A stretch of 64,000 nucleotides of DNA from Clostridia bacterium (GTDB lineage: Bacteria > Bacillota > Clostridia > Peptostreptococcales > Acidaminobacteraceae). The stretch covers positions 62,001-126,000 of the forward strand of contig JAGYOH010000002.1 of the NCBI GenBank assembly GCA_018399635.1, in the 5' to 3' direction. Positions 4,210-24,246 of this stretch are shown here, one piece after another. The position numbers and the translations under genes are program-made. The notes below the pieces were generated by a model. It saw nothing but the letters and a program-made list of their open reading frames with translations, had not been told where the DNA came from and ran no database searches. Numbering within the stretch: the first letter of the stretch is position 1; the number at the start of each line of letters is the position of its first letter.

Positions 4210-5553
4210 TTATCGAAGATCGATGTCGCTGTAGATCTTTTTCACCGCCACGGACTGGTAGGCCGGCCGGAGGATTTTTTCATCGGATAAAAGCTGTTCC
4301 ATGCGGTGGGCGCACCAGCCCGCCACCCGGGCGACGGCGAAGATGGGGGTGAAAAGATCCTGGGGAATGTCCAGCATTTGATAGACCAGGCCGGAATACA
4401 GGTCCACATTGGCGGGGATCAGGGCCTTGGGACCCTTGACCTCGAAGAATATTTCCTGGGTCAGGGCCTCAATGGCGGCATAGAGCTCGAATTCCTCGAG
4501 GCAGTCCTTCTCCTGGGCCAGCTTCCTGGCCTTGTCCTTGAGAATCCGGGCCCTGACATCACTCATGGTGTAGACGGCGTGGCCCATGCCGTAGATCAGA
4601 CCCCGGCCGTCAAAGGCCTCCCCCTCGAGAATTTTTCTCAGATAGGCCTTGAGGGCCCCGGGGTCCCGGGGGTCACAATGGGCCTTGATGTCCGCCACCA
4701 TCTGGCTGACCTTGATGTTGGCCCCGCCGTGCTTGGGGCCCTTGAGGCAGCCCACCGCCGCCGCAATGGCGGAGTAGGTGTCGGTCCCGCTCGAGGACAC
4801 CACGTGGGTGGCGAAGGAGGAGTTGTTGCCGCCCCCGTGGTCGGCATGGAGGACCAGGCACAGGTCGAGGATCTCCGCCTCGGTCCGGCTGTAGCGGTTG
4901 TCGGGACGAATCATGTGAAGAATGTTCCCCGCTGTCCCGATGCCGGCCTGGGGACTGTGGATGTGGAGACTCAGATTGTCGAAATAGTGGGCCTTGGCCT
5001 GGTAGCCGTAGGCAATGATGGTGGGGAAGCGGGCGATGAGATAGAGACTCTGGACCAGCAGATTCTTCACACTGAGATCGTCGGGATCCGGATCCTGGGA
5101 GTAGAGGACCAGGACACTCCGCTGCAGCTTGTTCATCACATCCCTGGAGGGGATCTTGAGGATCATGTTCTCGGTGAAATTGTCCGGAAGCCGCCGCATG
5201 GCATCCAGGAGTTCATTGAAGGCTTCAAGTTCTCCGGCGGTGGGAAGGACGCCGAAAATCAAGAGGTAGACGGTTTCCTCGAAGCCCCTCATCCCCTTTG
5301 AGGAAAACCCCTCCACCAGCTCGTTGATCTCGATGCCCCGGTAGTAGAGCCGGCCCGGGGCGGGATACTTGACCCCCTCCTTCAGTTGGTAGCCCACTAC
5401 GCTGCTCACCTGGGTCAGTCCCACCATGACCCCGGTCCCGTTCTCGTTCCTGAGCCCCCGTTTGAGGTTGTACTTGTGGTAGAATTCCGGATTGATCCGG
5501 TTGGTGATGGCGGCCAGGGCCGTCAATTGGTTGACAAGTGGATGGTCCTTCAT
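4210..5553 (-). CDS. Citrate synthase
   Basis: Condenses oxaloacetate and acetyl-CoA to citrate. The 447 residues include the hallmark active-site segments LHADHGGGNNSS, KGPKHGGAN and GMGHAVY, and a late RVAGWCAHRMEQ motif. The length is somewhat above the usual type II enzyme because of an N-terminal extension. It starts at ATG 5553, directly after the isocitrate dehydrogenase stop, with AAGGTTAA as ribosome site. It is last in the aconitase-IDH-citrate synthase operon, which suggests a citrate to 2-oxoglutarate branch for glutamate synthesis. Confidence 0.95.
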   Translation of the reverse strand: MKDHPLVNQLTALAAITNRINPEFYHKYNLKRGLRNENGTGVMVGLTQVSSVVGYQLKEGVKYPAPGRLYYRGIEINELVEGFSSKGMRGFEETVYLLIFGVLPTAGELEAFNELLDAMRRLPDNFTENMILKIPSRDVMNKLQRSVLVLYSQDPDPDDLSVKNLLVQSLYLIARFPTIIAYGYQAKAHYFDNLSLHIHSPQAGIGTAGNILHMIRPDNRYSRTEAEILDLCLVLHADHGGGNNSSFATHVVSSSGTDTYSAIAAAVGCLKGPKHGGANIKVSQMVADIKAHCDPRDPGALKAYLRKILEGEAFDGRGLIYGMGHAVYTMSDVRARILKDKARKLAQEKDCLEEFELYAAIEALTQEIFFEVKGPKALIPANVDLYSGLVYQMLDIPQDLFTPIFAVARVAGWCAHRMEQLLSDEKILRPAYQSVAVKKIYSDIDLR

Positions 5554-5556
5554 GCT

Positions 5557-6546
5557 TTAACCTTCTTTCATGGCGGCAATAATGGCTTTTTCCATGGCCA
5601 GGGTGGTGTCCCGCCCCCCCAGGTCCGGTGTCCTGACCCGGCCCCGGGCCAGGATGCGGTTCACGGCCTTTTCAATGGCCCCGGCCTTTTCCTCCTCCCC
5701 CACGTGCCTCAGGAGGAGGGCCCCGCTTCTGATCATGGCGACGGGATTGGCGATCCCCCTGCCGGCGATATCCGGGGCACTGCCGTGGACGGCTTCAAAA
5801 ATCGCTCCCTCATCACCGATGTTCCCCGAAGGAACAAGGCCGAGGCCCCCCACCAGGCCGGCGCCCAGGTCGCTGAGGATGTCCCCGTAGAGATTCATGG
5901 TGACGATGATGCCGAAGGCCTGGGGCCGCATCACCATCTGCAGGCACATGTTGTCCACGATGACCTCTTCGAGAGGGATACCGAAATCCCCCGCCGTCTC
6001 CCGGGCGATCTTCAGAAAGAGGCCGTCGGAATACTTCAGGATATTGGCCTTGTGGACCACTGTCACCTTGGACTTTTTCAAGATCCTGGCCGATTCAAAA
6101 GCCTTGAAGAGAATCCTTTTCGAGGCCTTGCGGGTGACCACCTTCACCGCCTCCACCCGGTCCGGGCTGACGATCCGCTCGACGCCCCCGTAGAGACCCT
6201 CGGTGTTTTCTCTGAAAATGATCATGTCGATGTCCCCAGGGACATTCCTGATGGGGCGGATATTGGCATAGAGGTCGAACCGCTTCCGGAGGGCCACGTT
6301 GACACTGGTGAAGCCTCCCCCCACCGGAGTAGTGATGGGGCCCTTGAGGGCCAGGCGGGTTCTGTCGAGGCTTTCAATCAAGGCCCCCGGAATCAGCTCC
6401 CCGGTTTTTTTCAGGGTCTCGCCGCCGGCTTCAAAGGTCTCGAAGGCCAGGGAGAGTCCGGTGGCTTCCAGGACCCTTCGGGCACTGTGGGCCACTTCCT
6501 TGCCGATGCCATCCCCTTCGATGAGGGTGATCCTATAGGTTTTCAT
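5557..6546 (-). CDS. NAD(P)-dependent isocitrate dehydrogenase (isocitrate/isopropylmalate family)
   Basis: Oxidative decarboxylation of isocitrate to 2-oxoglutarate. The 329-residue enzyme shows the family start [24 protein letters not shown] and the Mg/substrate segment [19 protein letters not shown], followed by [13 protein letters not shown] chose ATG 6546 (AAGGAGTG seven bases upstream) rather than the GTG at 6555, which overlaps that site. It overlaps the aconitase stop by 14 bp. The flanking aconitase and citrate synthase genes favour isocitrate over 3-isopropylmalate as substrate. Confidence 0.92.
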
Positions 6547-8464
6547 CCTTTTCACTCCTTAAACGGTTGATGGTTCCTCCCAGGAGGAGGGTCCGGGTTT
6601 CCCTGGGAGAACCGGTGAAACGGCAGGCCAGCTTCTCCCGCCGGCTGAGGTTCGTCACCTCGATGATGCCGCCTGCCTCAAGGGCCTGTCTCAGACCGGT
6701 CATCTCGAGCTCGTCCCCCTCTCCCAGGGCCTGATAATCCTCCGGATTGACAAATTCCAGGGGCACAATCCCGCTGTTGATGAGATTGGACCGGTGGATC
6801 CTGGCGTAGGATCTGGCGATGACCGCCCTGACGCCGAGATGCAGGGGAACCAGGGCCGCATGCTCCCGGCTGGACCCCTGGCCGTAATTCTCCCCCCCGA
6901 CGACAAAACCGCCGGCCATGGCCGAGGCCCTTGCGGCAAAGTCAGGGCACTGGCTCTTGAAGCAGTACTCTGACAGCCTGGGAATATTGGACCGGAAGGG
7001 GAGCAGGGCCGCCGTGGAGGGCATGATGTCATCCGTGGTGATATGGTCCCCCACCTTGAGAAGGACGGTCTTCACCAGGGTGTCCTCGAGAGGGCCCCCC
7101 CGGGGGAAGGGTTTGATGTTGACCCCCATGATCAAGGTCACCGGTTCAGAGCTTTCAACCGGAGGAATCAGGTACTCCTCCCCCCCGGCAAAGACTTCAG
7201 GATAGGCCACCCGGGGCATTTCACCCAGGGTCCGGGGATCTGTCAATCTGCCGGTGACGGCACTGACCGCCGCCGCCGCCGGTCCCAGGAGGTAGACCTC
7301 GGCGTCCAGGGTCCCGCTGCGACCCTTGAAATTCCGGTTGAAGGTCCTCAGGGAGATGCCTCCCGAGGGAGGCGCCTGACCCATGCCGATGCAGGGGCCG
7401 CAGGCGGATTCCAGGATTCTGGCGCCGGCCCCGATGAGGTCCGACAGGGCTCCGGAATCACTCAGGGCCCTCAAGACCCCCGCCGAACCCGGTGAAATGA
7501 CCAGACTCACGTCGGGGTGGACCCTTTTGCCCTTGAGGATCTTCGCCACCATCATCAGGTCGCCGTAGCTCGAATTGGTGCAGCTGCCGATGGCCACCTG
7601 GTCCACCTTGAGGGGATGGTCCTTGACCCGGGCCACCCGGTCCGGACTGTGGGGCAGGGCCACCAGGGGCTCGAGGCCGTCAAGGTCGATGGTGATTTCG
7701 GCGTCGTATTCCGCCCCCTCATCCGCTGCCAGGGGCCTGTAGTCCCCCCCTCGACCCTGGCGAAGGAGATAGGCCAGGGTCACTTCATCGCTGGGAAAAA
7801 TGGAGGAGGTGGCTCCGAGCTCCGCCCCCATGTTGGCGATGGTGGCCCGGTCCGTGAGGGACAGACTCCCCAGTCCCTCCCCCCGGTACTCCAGGATATA
7901 GCCGACCCCCCCCTTCACCGACAGGTCGGAGAGAATCTTGAGGATCACGTCCTTGCCCCCCACCCAGGCTGGCAGTTTTCCCTTCAGATTCACCGCCATG
8001 ACTCCGGGCACCTTCATGTCATAGGTCCCCGTGGCCATGGCCACCGCCACATCGAGACCTCCCGCCCCCATGGCCAGGGCTCCCATGGCCCCGCCCGTGG
8101 GGGTATGGGAATCAGAGCCCAGGAGGCTTGTCCCCGGGACCGCAAACCTTTCCAGATGGACCTGGTGACAGATTCCTCCCCCCGCTTTGGAAAAATAGAG
8201 TCCGTATTTTCTGGCCGCCGACTGGATGAAACGGTGGTCATCGGCGTTTTCAAACCCCGTTTGAAGGGTGTTGTGGTCGATATAGGCGACGGAAAGCGCG
8301 GTCTTGATCTTTCTGATGCCAAGCGCCTCCAGCTGCAGGTAGACCATGGTGCCCGTGGAATCCTGGGTCAGGGTCTGGTCGATGCGGATCTTGATTTCCC
8401 TTCCCCTGGACAGTTCCCCCTGGATCAAATGCTCCCTCAGTATCTTCATCGTCAGATTGGCCAT
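6533..8464 (-). CDS. Aconitate hydratase
   Basis: Isomerises citrate to isocitrate with a [4Fe-4S] cluster. The protein has about 643 residues, the shorter aconitase/homoaconitase-like type. Cluster cysteines are visible in IGSCTNSS and SACGPCIGMG, and the swivel domain carries GGENYGQGSSREHAAL. Both ATG 8464 and GTG 8470 are possible starts; the AAAGGGTG site favours the ATG. First gene of the three-gene operon, with a strong vegetative promoter upstream. Confidence 0.94.
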   Translation of the reverse strand: MANLTMKILREHLIQGELSRGREIKIRIDQTLTQDSTGTMVYLQLEALGIRKIKTALSVAYIDHNTLQTGFENADDHRFIQSAARKYGLYFSKAGGGICHQVHLERFAVPGTSLLGSDSHTPTGGAMGALAMGAGGLDVAVAMATGTYDMKVPGVMAVNLKGKLPAWVGGKDVILKILSDLSVKGGVGYILEYRGEGLGSLSLTDRATIANMGAELGATSSIFPSDEVTLAYLLRQGRGGDYRPLAADEGAEYDAEITIDLDGLEPLVALPHSPDRVARVKDHPLKVDQVAIGSCTNSSYGDLMMVAKILKGKRVHPDVSLVISPGSAGVLRALSDSGALSDLIGAGARILESACGPCIGMGQAPPSGGISLRTFNRNFKGRSGTLDAEVYLLGPAAAAVSAVTGRLTDPRTLGEMPRVAYPEVFAGGEEYLIPPVESSEPVTLIMGVNIKPFPRGGPLEDTLVKTVLLKVGDHITTDDIMPSTAALLPFRSNIPRLSEYCFKSQCPDFAARASAMAGGFVVGGENYGQGSSREHAALVPLHLGVRAVIARSYARIHRSNLINSGIVPLEFVNPEDYQALGEGDELEMTGLRQALEAGGIIEVTNLSRREKLACRFTGSPRETRTLLLGGTINRLRSEKDENL

Positions 8465-8498
8465 CAGCACAACACCCTTTCATGTATATTCGCATACA

Positions 8499-18510: not shown

Positions 18511-18538
18511 GGCCTGGCATCTCAGGCCTCTTTTTTTT
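18511..18538 (+). terminator. Rho-independent terminator
   Basis: GGCCTG-gcatct-CAGGCC followed by TCTTTTTTTT. It overlaps the last codons of the convergent 1456-residue gene. Confidence 0.85.
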
Positions 18539-21500
18539 CGAAAATCTCCCTGAAACGACCCAGGAAGCGAAGGTCCTCCCGGACCAGCTCCGAGGGCGGT
18601 CTTTTCTCGCTGAAGGTTCCCTCGTTGATGGCCTCGGGGTAGCGGGGGGTGATCACGATTTCTCCAAGGTCCCTGACCACCAGGGGACGGCCGGTCTTCT
18701 CCAGATAGACGGCTTCCATCACCTTTAGAAAAGTCACCATTTCCGAGAGGGTGGTCCGGCTGAAGGCATAAAGGTCCCCATGGTCCCTGACGGCCTCCTG
18801 GGCCACGAACATATAGGGCAGGAGCTTGTTCACCGAGGGCAGCAGGGTGGTCCCGGGCCATTCCCCCTTGAGAAGGGTTTCTCCTCCCACAAAGGGCATC
18901 AACTGGCTTTCCACGAACCAGGCGGAGATATTCTTCAACCGGTAGGCGCCCCTGACTCCCAGGGACCCGGCCACCGCCTCACCCGAATCCGTCGTGATTC
19001 CCGCCACGATCCCCTTGACGACGATCCCCTCCGACCTGAAATGGGGAATCAGTTCATTCAACCGATAGCCCTTGTCCAGGAGGTCGTCCACCAGGATCAC
19101 CGGCTTCCCGTAGGCCTTGAGGGTGCGGATCTGGTCCTCGAGACCCATGTAATTGGGGTGGGCCAGGATCTTGAAGGTATCGGCCTCCCGATTGTAGCAC
19201 CGCTCCACATGGAGGGCCTTGGTGACGGCTCCCGGGAGGATCCAGCGGTTGAAAAGGTCTCCGTAGGGAACCACCATGGCCTCGCCGAGCCGGTCCCCTT
19301 GATAGGGATTCATGGCCTTGAGGATTCTCAGAATGTGCTGGTACATGAAGGTATGGTCCATGAGCAGGAGCAGTTTCCCGGGAAAGAGGCGGCCGATATT
19401 GCCGATCAGGGCCTTGCGGAAATCAAGGAGTCCCTCCCGAAGGATGTAGTCCTTCCTGTAGTCCCTCTTCAGCATGGACTGCCCGTCCATGATCAGGACC
19501 ATGGGGGAGGACAGGGAGACCTCGAGGCCGTGGTCCGAGGCCGTGAAATTGAATTGCCTGAGGACCTCTTCCTCCAGGCCGGACTGCGTGACCCTGACCC
19601 TCTTGACCTGGTTCTGGATGCCCCAGACGAAGACCTCCGTCAAGACCGAGACCCTGTAATCGTGAAGCTGTTCCTGAGATTCCCCCTGAAGTCCCGTGAG
19701 GACCATGACGTCCCCCTCCAAATGATAATCCACCTGGGCGATATTTTCCCGGCTCCGGGTGTTTCTGATCATCACCCTGCCCGGCTCCATGACCACCTCC
19801 AGGGTCCCCTCCTTCACGCGACCCTTGAACTGGGGCTCCCCCCGGTACATCCGATGCTCCTCGACCACCTGGGCCCCCAGGGGATCGAGGATTTCCGAAA
19901 GATCCCAGTGGTGGGTCACGTACTGCCTGACCAGGGAGGCACTGTAATCCCTCGATTCCCCTCCCGTCTCAAGGTAACGGTGGTCCAGCCGGTCGAGTCT
20001 TTCCTTCAGGAGTTTCTCCCCCTCCGGATGCCTCTCCCCGCCCCGGATGATGAAATGGGGCAGGGTATAGATCTCCCCGTTTTTTCTGCCGTAGGCGGGG
20101 TGTCCCGTCAGGGTCTCCTCCCCCACCGCCAGATGGAGTCTGCGGCTCCCGTAGACCCGGCTCAGCCCCCTCAGGGATTCCTCAGAGGCCAGGTTCACCT
20201 GAAAACCTGACGGCAGCAGAAAAACCATCAGGTCCTCGGCGGTGGCCAGTTTGATGATCTGTCTTCTGAGATTGGTGGGCTGGGTCTGGCGCCGCCAGTT
20301 GAATTCATCCACGGCGATGTGGACCTCCATGCCCTTGGCCGCAATCTCCAGAGCGGCTCTTTTTTGTCCCCGGGTGAAGGGGTCGAAGGTGCCCCTGAAA
20401 AAGGCCACCGGCCGACCCAGGGGAAAGTCAAAGGTCCAGCCCCGATACCTCACCTCGTTGATCAGACGGTAGATTTCAATCACCCCGGTTCTGTAGGACT
20501 CCCCGAAGGCGGTGTCCTCCAGGAGGGCCAGGACCTTCTTCCCTGTAAGCTCGAAGATTCTCTTGCGGGCCTCCAGGGGAATCGCCGAATTGCCCAGCAC
20601 TTCCTTGCCCAGGATTTCCAGGGTCCTCGACCCGATCTGGTCCTTTTCATAGGCCAGCCCGATGAGCAGATATCCCACAAGCTCCCGGATTCTCTCCTCC
20701 CCGGCCTCCCCCTTCTGGTAAAGCTCCCGGATCAGGTGGGCCACGGTTTTGAGAATCAGGTTCTTCAGGTAGGAGTTGGCCCTTCGGAGCTTGTCGTCAA
20801 AATCCCTGAGGACTTCCGAGTACTCCTCTTCCCCGAGTCTCACCAGAAGATGGGCCAGATACTCCGGAATGAACTTGGCGAACTGATAGGATTCCATCTC
20901 CATTCCCCGCATCATCTCCACCACCACGTCATTGAGCTCATGAGGCTGCAAGCGGTCTGAAAGCACCATGAGGTTTTTCCCGGCGTGATTCCTGACCCCC
21001 TCATATTCGCTGACCTTGATCAGATTGCTCAAATGCAGGGCAAGATGACAGCCCTGGGATTCCGGCGTGTTTCCCATCAGGTGGTCCATGGCCAGAATCT
21101 TGTCCACCCAGGGGGTCCCGCTCTTGAGATTATTCAGGTAGAGGGTCTGGCTCTCGTGAGGGCAATGGTCCTGGTCTCTCCGGTAGAGCCAGAGCTCCTC
21201 CCCCTCGAGGTCCCCCTCCAGGGGGATCCCGAGACGCCGGGCGCCGTCACAGGCCAGATGCCGGGAGAGTCTCCCCTCGGTCATCATCTTTTCAATCAGC
21301 CGGGTTCTCAGAACAGCCTTGTCCTTCCCCTCGAAGCCCTCCCCTGGCATCCGCATAAGAATTTCCAGAAAGCCCCTGCGGTGGGCCCCATGAAGGTCCT
21401 GGTCCTGCATCAGGGCCATGAAGTAGCCCATCGCCTCTTCGAAAATCCCCGGATCCTTCCCCATCACGACGGCGATGCTGTTGGCAATCCCCTGACCCAT

Positions 21501-22892
21501 CCATCGGAACTTTTGCTCCGTGGCGGAGGGGTCGAGATTGACCAGGCCGTCAAAGAGCTTTTTGATCAGGTCGATCCTCTGGTACCTGACCTCGATCTTC
21601 TCGGCCCCCCTGGGGGTTTCCTTCTTGTAGGTCTCATCGTAGCCGACGATGATGTCCCCCATGATTTCCGAGGCGGTTTTTCGAATGTCCTCCTTGGGAT
21701 TCAGAAGCTCCTCCATGAGAAAATCCATGGTCAGAATCTTCTGGGGAGGTGTCATGTAGTAGTGATAGGACCGCAGGATGTCGATGGTCCTTCTGAAATC
21801 AAAACTGTTTTGCTCTCCCCTGGCATCGGCGATGAAGGCCTTGAGGGAGGCCATGTCCCTGAGCTGTGTCATGGTCTTGAGGTTGCTGGCGAGAATCCTG
21901 TAGACCCATTCATCGAGAATCCGGGGTCCTTCAAGGGAGAAGGCCCCCAGCATCACGGGCTTTGCCGGGGGGGCGGCCAGATCAAGCGCCACTCCGAGGT
22001 GCTCCAGGTAGTTTTCAAAATCCTTCAGTTTGAGATAGACCCGCTGGTAACGGACCTCCTTCTCATGATCCAGGCTGTCAAGCTTGTCAAGAATCACCGA
22101 AAAAGACTCCGCCAGGGTGTAGAAACTCATGCCCCTGTCCCTGCCCTTGATGCGCTTGACCCGGAAATCCGCATAAATCAGGATCAGGGACTCGATGGAC
22201 AGGTTGTCCAGCTCCAGATCCCACACGGAATGGTTGACGGCGATATTGCGGATATACGCGATGCCCCGGTTCCTGAACCACTGGTCCGTGTAGTAGTAAT
22301 GATAGTAGGCGACCCGATGGACCTCCTCCCGGCCGACCCCGAACTTGCCCAGATCATGGCCGGCGGCGGCCCCGCTCACCCGGCCCAGATCCACGGCGTG
22401 GCCGAGGTCCCTGAGCTGGTAGGCCAGGTGCATGGCCAGATAATGGACCCCGACGATATGCTCCAGGGTGGCATGGCCGGTGACGCTCTGGCTCAGCTTC
22501 ATCATCTCGTAGATGTATTCTTCCTCGAAGGCTCTTTTGAAGGCCACGTACTCTCTTGGATCCTCCAGGGCCGCCACGTCCTCCTCCCCCAGGAGGGTGA
22601 AGGGGTATCTTGACAGAAAAGTCCCGTAGTCCCCCTTTCTCTCCTCAAGGGAAAGGGCCCTGAAGACCTCCAGAAAGGCCTCGGCCCCCTGCTTCCTCTT
22701 GGGGGAAAATTCAAGAGCGGTTGCCTGGGGAAAGGATTTCGACAGGGCGTATTCATAGATGACCTTCAGTCCCTCATCACAGGGCAGACCCAGCAGGTCC
22801 TCCCCCAGAAGCTCATAGAGGTCCCCGGCGCCGAATCGTCCCCCGGCGATCAAGGCCTCGATGCCAGAACCCCTTTCCTTTGCTTTCTCCAC
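18522..22892 (-). CDS. Giant HD-domain / nucleotidyltransferase-like / phosphoribosyltransferase-like protein (1456 aa)
   Basis: One uninterrupted frame with several domains. Residues about 130-300: HD phosphohydrolase-like domain (TGHATLEHIVGVH, AAGHDLGKFG, AVNHSVWDLE). About 310-820: all-helical, repeat-like region. About 830-1000: NadD/cytidylyltransferase-like fold with GTFDPFTRGQ, in which the usual HxGH is TRGQ. About 1220-1340: PRTase-like domain with VILVDDLLDKGYRL as the PRPP loop. No membrane segments. GTG start at 22892 with AAAGGGG upstream. The set of domains suggests nucleotide or NAD-type turnover or signalling, but the reaction is unknown. Transcribed divergently from aspartokinase. 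Confidence 0.8.
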   Translation of the reverse strand: MEKAKERGSGIEALIAGGRFGAGDLYELLGEDLLGLPCDEGLKVIYEYALSKSFPQATALEFSPKRKQGAEAFLEVFRALSLEERKGDYGTFLSRYPFTLLGEEDVAALEDPREYVAFKRAFEEEYIYEMMKLSQSVTGHATLEHIVGVHYLAMHLAYQLRDLGHAVDLGRVSGAAAGHDLGKFGVGREEVHRVAYYHYYYTDQWFRNRGIAYIRNIAVNHSVWDLELDNLSIESLILIYADFRVKRIKGRDRGMSFYTLAESFSVILDKLDSLDHEKEVRYQRVYLKLKDFENYLEHLGVALDLAAPPAKPVMLGAFSLEGPRILDEWVYRILASNLKTMTQLRDMASLKAFIADARGEQNSFDFRRTIDILRSYHYYMTPPQKILTMDFLMEELLNPKEDIRKTASEIMGDIIVGYDETYKKETPRGAEKIEVRYQRIDLIKKLFDGLVNLDPSATEQKFRWMGQGIANSIAVVMGKDPGIFEEAMGYFMALMQDQDLHGAHRRGFLEILMRMPGEGFEGKDKAVLRTRLIEKMMTEGRLSRHLACDGARRLGIPLEGDLEGEELWLYRRDQDHCPHESQTLYLNNLKSGTPWVDKILAMDHLMGNTPESQGCHLALHLSNLIKVSEYEGVRNHAGKNLMVLSDRLQPHELNDVVVEMMRGMEMESYQFAKFIPEYLAHLLVRLGEEEYSEVLRDFDDKLRRANSYLKNLILKTVAHLIRELYQKGEAGEERIRELVGYLLIGLAYEKDQIGSRTLEILGKEVLGNSAIPLEARKRIFELTGKKVLALLEDTAFGESYRTGVIEIYRLINEVRYRGWTFDFPLGRPVAFFRGTFDPFTRGQKRAALEIAAKGMEVHIAVDEFNWRRQTQPTNLRRQIIKLATAEDLMVFLLPSGFQVNLASEESLRGLSRVYGSRRLHLAVGEETLTGHPAYGRKNGEIYTLPHFIIRGGERHPEGEKLLKERLDRLDHRYLETGGESRDYSASLVRQYVTHHWDLSEILDPLGAQVVEEHRMYRGEPQFKGRVKEGTLEVVMEPGRVMIRNTRSRENIAQVDYHLEGDVMVLTGLQGESQEQLHDYRVSVLTEVFVWGIQNQVKRVRVTQSGLEEEVLRQFNFTASDHGLEVSLSSPMVLIMDGQSMLKRDYRKDYILREGLLDFRKALIGNIGRLFPGKLLLLMDHTFMYQHILRILKAMNPYQGDRLGEAMVVPYGDLFNRWILPGAVTKALHVERCYNREADTFKILAHPNYMGLEDQIRTLKAYGKPVILVDDLLDKGYRLNELIPHFRSEGIVVKGIVAGITTDSGEAVAGSLGVRGAYRLKNISAWFVESQLMPFVGGETLLKGEWPGTTLLPSVNKLLPYMFVAQEAVRDHGDLYAFSRTTLSEMVTFLKVMEAVYLEKTGRPLVVRDLGEIVITPRYPEAINEGTFSEKRPPSELVREDLRFLGRFREIFEKKEA

Positions 22893-22947
22893 ACCACCAG
22901 ACCCCTTTCCTGAACCGCGTTTGTCCTATAGATACCACTATTATACC

Positions 22948-22976
22948 TTGAATCATCAAATACCTTGTGCTATACT
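22948..22976 (+). promoter_or_regulatory. Sigma-A promoter of aspartokinase
   Basis: TTGAAT (22948-22953), 17-bp spacer, TATACT (22971-22976), about 60 bp upstream of the start. The space is too short for a lysine riboswitch. Confidence 0.7.
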
Positions 22977-23034
22977 ACATTTTAGTACTTCACAGATAAA
23001 CAAGTGTCCATTTCAGACGGAAAAGGTGATCATC

Positions 23035-24246
23035 TTGGAAAATATCATGGTCCAGAAATACGGCGGAACCTCCCTGCAGGATACGGACCGCATCAAAAAC
23101 ACCGCCAGGCGGATCAAGGGCTATCGACAGAAGGGCCATGAAATGATCGTCGTGGTCTCCGCCATGGGAAAAACCACCAACAATCTCATCAGCCTGGCCA
23201 GGGAGATCAGCGATTCACCCCCGAAAAGAGAGCTCGACGTCCTCCTGGCCACGGGGGAACAGATCTCCATCGCCCTGCTTTCCATCGCCCTCAACGAAAT
23301 CGGGGTCGACACCATCTCCCTCACCGGGGCCCAGTGCGGCATCAGAACCAGCAATCTTCACTCCAACGCCCGGATCGAGGACATCGACACCGCCAGGCTC
23401 AAGGCGGAGTTCAAGGCGGGCAAGGTGGTCATCGTCGCAGGCTTCCAGGGCATCAACGAAAAAGGGGATATCACCACCCTGGGCCGGGGGGGCTCCGATA
23501 CCACCGCCGTGGCCCTGGCCGCCGCCATGAAGGCCCCGAAATGTGAAATCTACACCGACGTGGACGGGGTCTACGCCACGGATCCCCGGGTCGTCCCCCA
23601 GGCCCTCAAACTGGACCGGATCAGCTACGACGAGATGCTCGAAATGGCCAGACTCGGCGCCCAGGTCCTCCACCCCAGGTCCGTGGAACTCGCCAAAAAC
23701 CATCAGGTTCCCCTGGAGGTCAGAAGCAGCCTCAACTTCAACCCGGGAACCCAGATCATAGGAGAAATCAATATGGAAGACATTCGCATCAGCGGCATCA
23801 CCTCAGAAAAAAACATCGCCCGGATCTCCATCGCCAGGGTGCCTGACAAGCCCGGAATCGCCTACCGCCTCTTCAAGCGGCTTTCGGAGAACGAAATCTC
23901 CATCGACATGATTCTTCAGAATCTCAACCACGAAAACGCCAATGACATCTCCTTCACCACCCCCACCGAAGCCCTCGGAGAGGCCCTCCCCATCGTGGAA
24001 GGCTTTGCCGCGGACATCGAAGCCCAGGAGGTCATCGTCAAGGAGAATGTCTGCAAGATTTCCCTGGTGGGCACCGGCATCCTGGGTCACGGCGAGGTGG
24101 CGGCCACCTTCTTTGAAACCCTGTCCAATCTGGGAATCAATATCGAGATGATCTCCACTTCGGAGACGAAGATTTCCTGTCTCATCGACGGCAAGGACTC
24201 CGACACCGCCACAAGAACCCTTCACAGAATCTTCTTCGAAAAATAG
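23035..24246 (+). CDS. Aspartate kinase
   Basis: First step of the Asp-family pathway (Lys, Thr, Met, diaminopimelate). Kinase domain with VQKYGGTSLQD at the N-terminus and TTLGRGGSDTTAVALAAAM. Two C-terminal ACT domains (about 265-403) form the usual feedback-inhibition site. The best start is TTG 23035, five bases after AAAAGGTGA; ATG 23047 is the alternative and gives VQKYGG almost at the N-terminus. About 403 residues, the normal length for a monofunctional enzyme. Alone in its transcript, closed by a GC-rich hairpin. Confidence 0.95.
   Translation: MENIMVQKYGGTSLQDTDRIKNTARRIKGYRQKGHEMIVVVSAMGKTTNNLISLAREISDSPPKRELDVLLATGEQISIALLSIALNEIGVDTISLTGAQCGIRTSNLHSNARIEDIDTARLKAEFKAGKVVIVAGFQGINEKGDITTLGRGGSDTTAVALAAAMKAPKCEIYTDVDGVYATDPRVVPQALKLDRISYDEMLEMARLGAQVLHPRSVELAKNHQVPLEVRSSLNFNPGTQIIGEINMEDIRISGITSEKNIARISIARVPDKPGIAYRLFKRLSENEISIDMILQNLNHENANDISFTTPTEALGEALPIVEGFAADIEAQEVIVKENVCKISLVGTGILGHGEVAATFFETLSNLGINIEMISTSETKISCLIDGKDSDTATRTLHRIFFEK

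Follow-up and report, generated by a model that had tools for sequence, protein, structure and literature searches.

P0001, a large HD-domain protein of a Clostridia bacterium with a degenerate NadD-fold nucleotidyltransferase: a candidate hydrolase-only paralogue

The window, the whole stretch of 64,000 nucleotides from a Clostridia bacterium contig that was analysed, encodes a 1456-residue protein, termed P0001, that combines an HD site, a HEAT-type solenoid, a nucleotidyltransferase of the NadD fold carrying TRGQ in its active motif, and a phosphoribosyltransferase (PRTase)-like domain. Far from being an orphan, P0001 is a divergent paralogue in a family of ∼1640-residue proteins, here called standard copies, of Clostridia-type Bacillota and Atribacterota. 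Judging from the aligned sequences, selection in P0001 has kept the HD site, and the loss of the nucleotidyltransferase active motif is specific, within the family, to the clade of P0001. In four genomes the two functions are found in a complementary split between an operon copy and a P0001-type copy. The interpretation favoured here, which we give slightly better than an even chance, is that P0001, a paralogue of a large fused enzyme, acts only as a hydrolase, the joining activity having been lost and the cutting activity kept after duplication.

The P0001 gene and its domain layout

An earlier note on this DNA placed a 1456-residue protein at 18522-22892 and gave no strand; the open reading frame is intact and is on the minus strand (Table 1). 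A GGAAAGGGG stretch ends 9 bases upstream of the GTG, and the gene is divergent from an open reading frame at 22861-24246 (plus strand), an aspartate kinase by eye. P0001 is ∼180 amino acids shorter than the standard copy of its own genome. Elsewhere in the window, the minus strand has in a row what we take by eye to be citrate synthase, isocitrate dehydrogenase and aconitase reading frames (4210-8470), and one that presumably encodes a relative of the 2,4-diaminopentanoate dehydrogenase of ornithine fermentation (1529-2629, also by eye).

Table 1. Positions, in the window, of P0001, its domains and motifs, and its convergent neighbour
Feature	Coordinates	Strand	Basis
P0001, whole gene, 1456 aa, GTG start	18522..22892	minus	uninterrupted between the GTG at 22892 and the stop at 18522
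HD domain, aa 120-305; H145, H179-D180, H198, H221, D242	21978..22535	minus	residue conservation and family profile
HEAT-type helical solenoid, aa ∼323-805	20478..21926	minus	model, fold matches, Pfam HEAT in standard members
NadD-fold nucleotidyltransferase, aa 824-1018, catalytic motif lost	19839..20423	minus	fold match and family profile
Degenerate GxFDPFxxxH motif, GTFDPFTRGQ in P0001, aa 834-843	20364..20393	minus	sequence comparison
Small alpha/beta module, aa 1019-1130, shortened in P0001	19503..19838	minus	DSSP of the model
PRTase-like domain, aa 1131-1345	18858..19502	minus	family profile, weak PDB profile match, hhalign
PRPP-loop equivalent VILVDDLLDKGYR, aa 1265-1277	19062..19100	minus	alignment
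APH/choline-kinase-like protein, 305 aa, convergent neighbour of P0001	17588..18505	plus	PF01636, E 7.3e-23
Terminator-like hairpin between the convergent APH-like gene and P0001	18511..18528	plus	chance level: 5 such sites in the region, mean of 4.7 in shuffles

The domain assignments are based on the family and on the fold, not on the P0001 sequence alone. A scan with the single sequence gives only matches below curated cut-offs, namely Pfam CTP_transf_like (E 0.03) and Pribosyltran (E 0.029), TIGR00295 (E 0.0048) and TIGR00125 (E 0.013), and the Pfam scan of the whole protein gives no HD match at E<=1. A search of PDB sequences with P0001 alone found no convincing relative, the top match being a designed cage (E 0.027). 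Domain alignments contain 25 chosen rows plus the window sequence (26 members). Those used for structure prediction contain 66 of 74 rows plus the window sequence, six of the 80 loci having been set aside earlier.

Residues 1-805 are predicted to be nearly all helical (pLDDT 87.4), which agrees with the long helical region described in the earlier note, and residues 806-1456 are modelled with pLDDT 88.3 and pTM 0.88. Structure prediction of these two parts, in the line of a check that the note had proposed, recovers both the NadD fold and the solenoid. In the model, residues ∼338-805 match HEAT solenoids with Z 12-15, and Pfam HEAT is found in 10/30 standard members at E<=0.01. The label is limited to HEAT-type solenoid, since at Z 12-15 the arrangement of helical repeats is enough for a match. 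The note had overlooked an alpha/beta module (aa ∼1019-1130) between the nucleotidyltransferase and the PRTase-like domain. By eye, its strand/helix order in the model is GNAT-like; the sequence lends this possible identity no support (Pfam Acetyltransf_1 in 1/26 members, E 0.21).

Active-site motifs

The nucleotidyltransferase-like module of the earlier note is confirmed at the level of the predicted fold. Residues 827-1017 (model 22-212) superimpose on NadD of M. tuberculosis (4rpi_B) with Z 20.7 and an rmsd of 2.5 over 184 residues, and in the fold search of the C-terminal half NadD and NMNAT structures come ahead of CoaD (Z ∼15). The NadD model TIGR00482 is matched at E<=0.01 by all 30 standard members tested (best E 1.2e-14), with scores far below its curated cut-off of 112.45 bits (41.1 bits in one member, 48.6 in the standard copy of the own genome); P0001 does not reach the cut-off and gives no match at E<=1. 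Standard members resemble NadD also in their motifs, GxFDPF[ST]LxH and ISS[TS].IR, whereas P0001 shares with it the fold.

In P0001 the first motif reads GTFDPFTRGQ, its active part replaced by TRGQ as the note had claimed. The motif His is kept in 91/91 standard sequences and is Gln in 6/7 sequences of the P0001 clade; L033 retains His, as does L155, a further P0001-type sequence. Both Ser residues of ISS are present in 91/91 standard sequences, and the motif is damaged in 7/7 of the clade, where the second Ser is lost; the P0001 equivalent, YSASLVR, retains the first. The Asp found at position 958 of L107 is missing from 5/7 clade sequences; P0001 still has it. The 91 standard sequences are what is left of 101 rows once 7 P0001-clade and 3 HD-less rows are taken out; among them are an identical pair (L030/L049), some near-identical sequences and some truncated at contig ends. 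On these motifs, the P0001 nucleotidyltransferase is most likely a pseudoenzyme. Since the own genome has adjacent NadD and YqeK genes of the usual kind, NAD synthesis probably does not depend on P0001, and the large proteins probably have another task.

The HD site presents the opposite picture. Its metal-ligand residues, in the order H, HD, H, H, D, are found in 91/91 standard and 7/7 P0001-clade sequences, and those of P0001 are invariant in a 16-sequence alignment. Membership of the HD superfamily, also proposed in the note, is supported by the family profile: PF01966 is found in 20/26 members at E<=0.1 (best 1.3e-5). A PDB profile search with this part gives a single weak match, to the HD protein 1xx7 (E 0.12). 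An hhalign comparison with YqeK is weak (probability 13%, P 0.0021) and in register at H and HD; the mismatched comparison of the whole C-terminal half with YqeK gives P 0.0091, and the background, from four mismatched pairings among the three domain profiles, is P 0.036 to 0.49. At E<=10 the own genome has three TIGR00488 (YqeK) matches, all of them outside P0001 and the standard copy. HD domains may also have regulatory roles. The conserved ligand set suggests that the site in P0001 is probably catalytic, with metal-dependent hydrolysis.

The PRTase-like module of the note is likewise recovered with the family profile, PF00156 (Pribosyltran) being found in 12/26 members at E<=0.1 (best 6.4e-4). 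The PDB profile search gives a weak match at the loop to HPRT 4rqa (E 0.024). With hhalign, the domain is in register with APRT at DDLL-x-x-G (P 0.0008, probability only 25%), and the whole C-terminal half aligns with APRT at the PRTase part (P 0.0029). The likeness to type I phosphoribosyltransferases (APRT, HPRT) is in the predicted strand-DD-loop-helix of the PRPP site and, by eye, in the strand/helix order. The PRPP-type loop reported earlier, VILVDDLLDKGYR, is indeed present, and D1269, D1270, K1274, G1275 and R1277 are invariant in the 16-sequence alignment; its PRPP-type character holds only in part. Compared with the PRPP loop hhhhDDhh[TS][TS]G, P0001 has hhhhDD and the G, with T/S changed to D and K, and then R. 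The family-wide form is DDLL-[HND]-K-G-Y-R, having K and R where the type I enzymes have T/S. Within the P0001 clade, L020 is without K, G and R and L033 is without K, and therefore the loop appears dispensable in some members. Given the family-wide change in the loop, the domain may be an enzyme or a ligand sensor.

The family, its operon and the P0001 clade

Matches to P0001 are present in 44/61 genomes searched, its own included (cut-off E<=0.001), and the own genome also has the longer standard copy, L016 at G000:C23. In a GTDB species collection, the best 80 of at least 488 confirmed relatives were kept, every one of which carries the label Bacillota or Atribacterota. Of 398 genomes drawn across the phylum, 75 have a P0001 match, which is long in only 8 (own genome included). 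The remaining 67 are mostly short matches over the nucleotidyltransferase part, in open reading frames of ∼170-270 amino acids, as expected from the relationship with NadD. No copy was found in the family genomes G005, G006, G010, G015, G016, G028 and G036 (E<=0.001 with P0001, E<=1e-15 with the clade profile). Several of these genomes are incomplete; G005 and G006 are 95-96% complete, and thus the system looks dispensable.

A standard copy is usually the first gene of a three-gene operon. Both partners, an LDH-like gene and an FMN-reductase-like gene, follow closely downstream in 49/66 loci, with median gaps of 9 and -4 bases; one partner is present in 11 loci and none in 6. These counts are from the 66 of 80 loci with >=2.6 kb downstream, 14 having too little flank. 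The figure of 49 is slightly low, because L053 and L105, scored as having none, have both partner genes ∼5.5 kb further downstream, and because the LDH-like reading frame of L038, whose start overlaps the large gene by >60 bases, is uncounted. Over a wider neighbourhood the LDH-like gene is found in 75/88 loci and the FMN-reductase-like gene in 65/88, and no further gene group recurs in more than 11 of the 88. In 16 aligned sequences the LDH-like partner (Ldh_1_N) keeps GPHG and SDPVD. The other partner (FMN_red; e.g. L016:3742-4785) keeps all four cysteines of C-x2-C-x4-C-x8-C in 16/16, a pattern that to us recalls iron-sulfur flavoproteins. An apparent upstream fusion in L091 (2164 amino acids) was discounted: its extra N-terminus overlaps an opposite-strand reading frame and by eye is not domain-like.

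The P0001 clade consists of seven sequences (P0001, L018, L019, L031, L023, L020 and L033) and has SH-aLRT support of 100, or 99 under the C20 mixture model with 31 rows; the exact joins of P0001, L020 and L033 are unsure because of long branches. P0001 and the standard copy of its own genome are 62% identical in the HD domain, 31% in the nucleotidyltransferase, 35% in the PRTase-like domain and 26% in the solenoid. Corresponding values for three pairs of standard copies are 64-71%, 54-65%, 56-64% and 37-39%. Copies of the P0001 type are present in 9/41 family genomes, seven of these assigned by the tree, and G031 (L155) and G033 (L154) by HD similarity and motifs only.

The complementary split is the main evidence on function. 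Four genomes have an operon copy without the HD domain: G024 (L021), G020 (L034), G031 (L035) and G033 (L153). These copies retain GTFDPFS.GH or GSFDPFSLGH, ISS[TS].IR and DDLL[HN]KGYR, and are followed by the LDH-like gene, inside which the contig of L153 ends; the FMN-reductase-like gene is also present after L021 (cut by the contig end), L034 and L035. Each of these four genomes also has a copy of the P0001 type in which the HD site is intact (L020, L033, L155 and L154, in the same order), and in the survey, operon copies with an uncut start and no HD are found only where a P0001-type copy exists. In G000, G007, G011, G025 and G034 the P0001-type copy is accompanied by a full-length operon copy. 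The split points to HD and nucleotidyltransferase functions that are separable, with P0001 carrying the HD activity. Only two genera are involved, and so the split in G020, G024, G031 and G033 is possibly a single event.

An APH-like gene adjoins the P0001-type copy in five genomes, the own (G000), G007, G011, G025 and G034. Relatives of this gene above 190 bits, among the 41 family genomes, are in exactly the five genomes that have a P0001-type copy beside a full operon copy; the next best, 161.5 bits, is in G014. In G020 and G024 the stretches around the P0001-type copies have no APH neighbour, and G020, G024, G031 and G033 have no APH relative at E<=1e-10. A link between APH and P0001-type genes is suggested, and it is not constant.

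Two further arrangements involve APH genes. In G046, of another family of the order, an APH gene lies just upstream of a standard-type copy and in the same orientation (L026:5539-11372); L026 has no LDH or FMN partners in the stretch read, and a second copy in the same genome, L025, has both. In three related genomes a TPR-GAF-GGDEF gene is beside the APH and P0001-type genes (L018:1423-3579, L019:2498-4675 and L031:2185-4350), its domains having been scanned in L018 and the counterparts in L019 and L031 found by BLAST.

Proposed function and alternatives

In the open-access literature we found no description of the P0001 architecture, no biochemistry and no characterised homologue; together with the search of PDB sequences, this upholds the earlier remark that the protein is not a pathway enzyme that can be named. 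The family is apparently undescribed, and combines NadD and HD functions, a pairing with precedent. As described in one report (PMC9426524), mycoplasma JCVISYN3A_0380 is a fusion of NadD, the NaMN adenylyltransferase, with YqeK, an HD hydrolase of Ap4A and NaAD analogues, and the YqeK domain hydrolyses NaAD, NaAD analogues and 8-oxo-GTP. Like P0001, that fusion joins an HD phosphohydrolase to a NadD-type nucleotidyltransferase in a single chain; unlike it, P0001 has its HD domain at the N-terminus, a ∼480-residue solenoid between, an added PRTase-like domain, an HD domain only remotely YqeK-like, and a nucleotidyltransferase motif that is lost. By eye, YqeK and the P0001 HD domain have the same residue order.

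Rel/SpoT and the small alarmone enzymes, which have another nucleotidyltransferase fold, are a known case of two opposing activities in a single chain and of paralogues that retain just one. The P0001 family, as we see it, recalls this pattern of a bifunctional synthetase/hydrolase with one-function paralogues. The standard form, with HD phosphohydrolase site, HEAT solenoid, nucleotidyltransferase of intact motif and PRTase-like domain in one chain, would probably make and break, or make and proofread, a nucleotide diphosphate or dinucleotide. P0001 would have given up joining after the duplication and retained cutting. The bond hydrolysed by its HD centre would be a nucleotide phosphodiester, phosphoanhydride or phosphomonoester; the solenoid would keep the modules in one assembly, and ligand binding or regulation may be what the PRTase-like domain and the dead nucleotidyltransferase now serve. 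We infer the catalysis by HD, the identity of its substrate and a regulatory function for the remaining domains; the substrate is put as a dinucleotide or nucleotide diphosphate because the lost partner activity is of NadD type. The 'NAD/PRPP-linked signalling' reading of the earlier note misses the main point, which is that the NAD-type nucleotidyltransferase is disabled in the P0001 clade alone, the PRPP loop is non-canonical family-wide, and the HD site is preserved; the note had also overlooked that clade-specific loss.

Perhaps P0001 is instead a sensor or scaffold, whose former catalytic sites only bind nucleotides and which regulates the standard copy or the APH kinase by binding. The dead nucleotidyltransferase motif, a PRPP loop that is non-canonical throughout the family, a large solenoid suited to protein contacts and the APH gene beside the P0001-type copy in 5 genomes all agree with this. 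Pure binding would hardly require that the HD metal ligands be kept in 7/7 clade sequences, in what is the best-conserved region, and we regard such a role as unlikely. The PRTase-like site could also be the main one, joining a base or other acceptor with PRPP, with the HD site clearing a side product and the nucleotidyltransferase vestigial. That DD..KG.R is found in P0001 and in 4/6 other clade members, and that the PRTase-like domain is the second best kept at 35-41%, would suit it. The family-wide change of the canonical T/S to K/R, the P0001 Pfam score of 14.1 against a cut-off of 26.3, and L020, which is without the loop and yet keeps HD, make a phosphoribosyltransferase role decidedly improbable.

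The question also arises of whether P0001 is a decaying duplicate with no function of its own. Its branch is long (1.35 and 1.89 changes per column in two trees), the protein is shorter than its standard copy by the length given above, and G001, the only other genome of the genus searched, has a single match, a standard copy, and no P0001 orthologue. Against decay are 1456 uninterrupted codons, the retention of the HD residues and of the high HD identity, and the persistence of P0001-type copies in nine genomes; we consider it very improbable.

A broader interpretation, tentative and in our view doubtful, is that the family runs a complete cycle of its own around some undescribed NAD-like dinucleotide or nucleotide diphosphate, and that in the P0001 lineage this cycle is divided between two genes. 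The PRTase-like domain would build or bind a phosphoribosyl compound, the NadD-like domain would adenylylate it, and HD would break the product down, with the LDH-like and FMN-reductase-like partners using or modifying the product. P0001 would be the off-switch, beside which a kinase gene was recruited.

Many Clostridia-type bacteria thus have a three-gene operon with NAD-type, HD, PRTase-like, dehydrogenase-like and flavoprotein-like parts, for which no reaction was found in the open-access literature. Where the family's two opposite activities are in separate genes, they provide ready-made single-function proteins for a substrate search. Under the split, the HD-less copies would be expected to make the substrate, and the P0001-type copies to destroy it.
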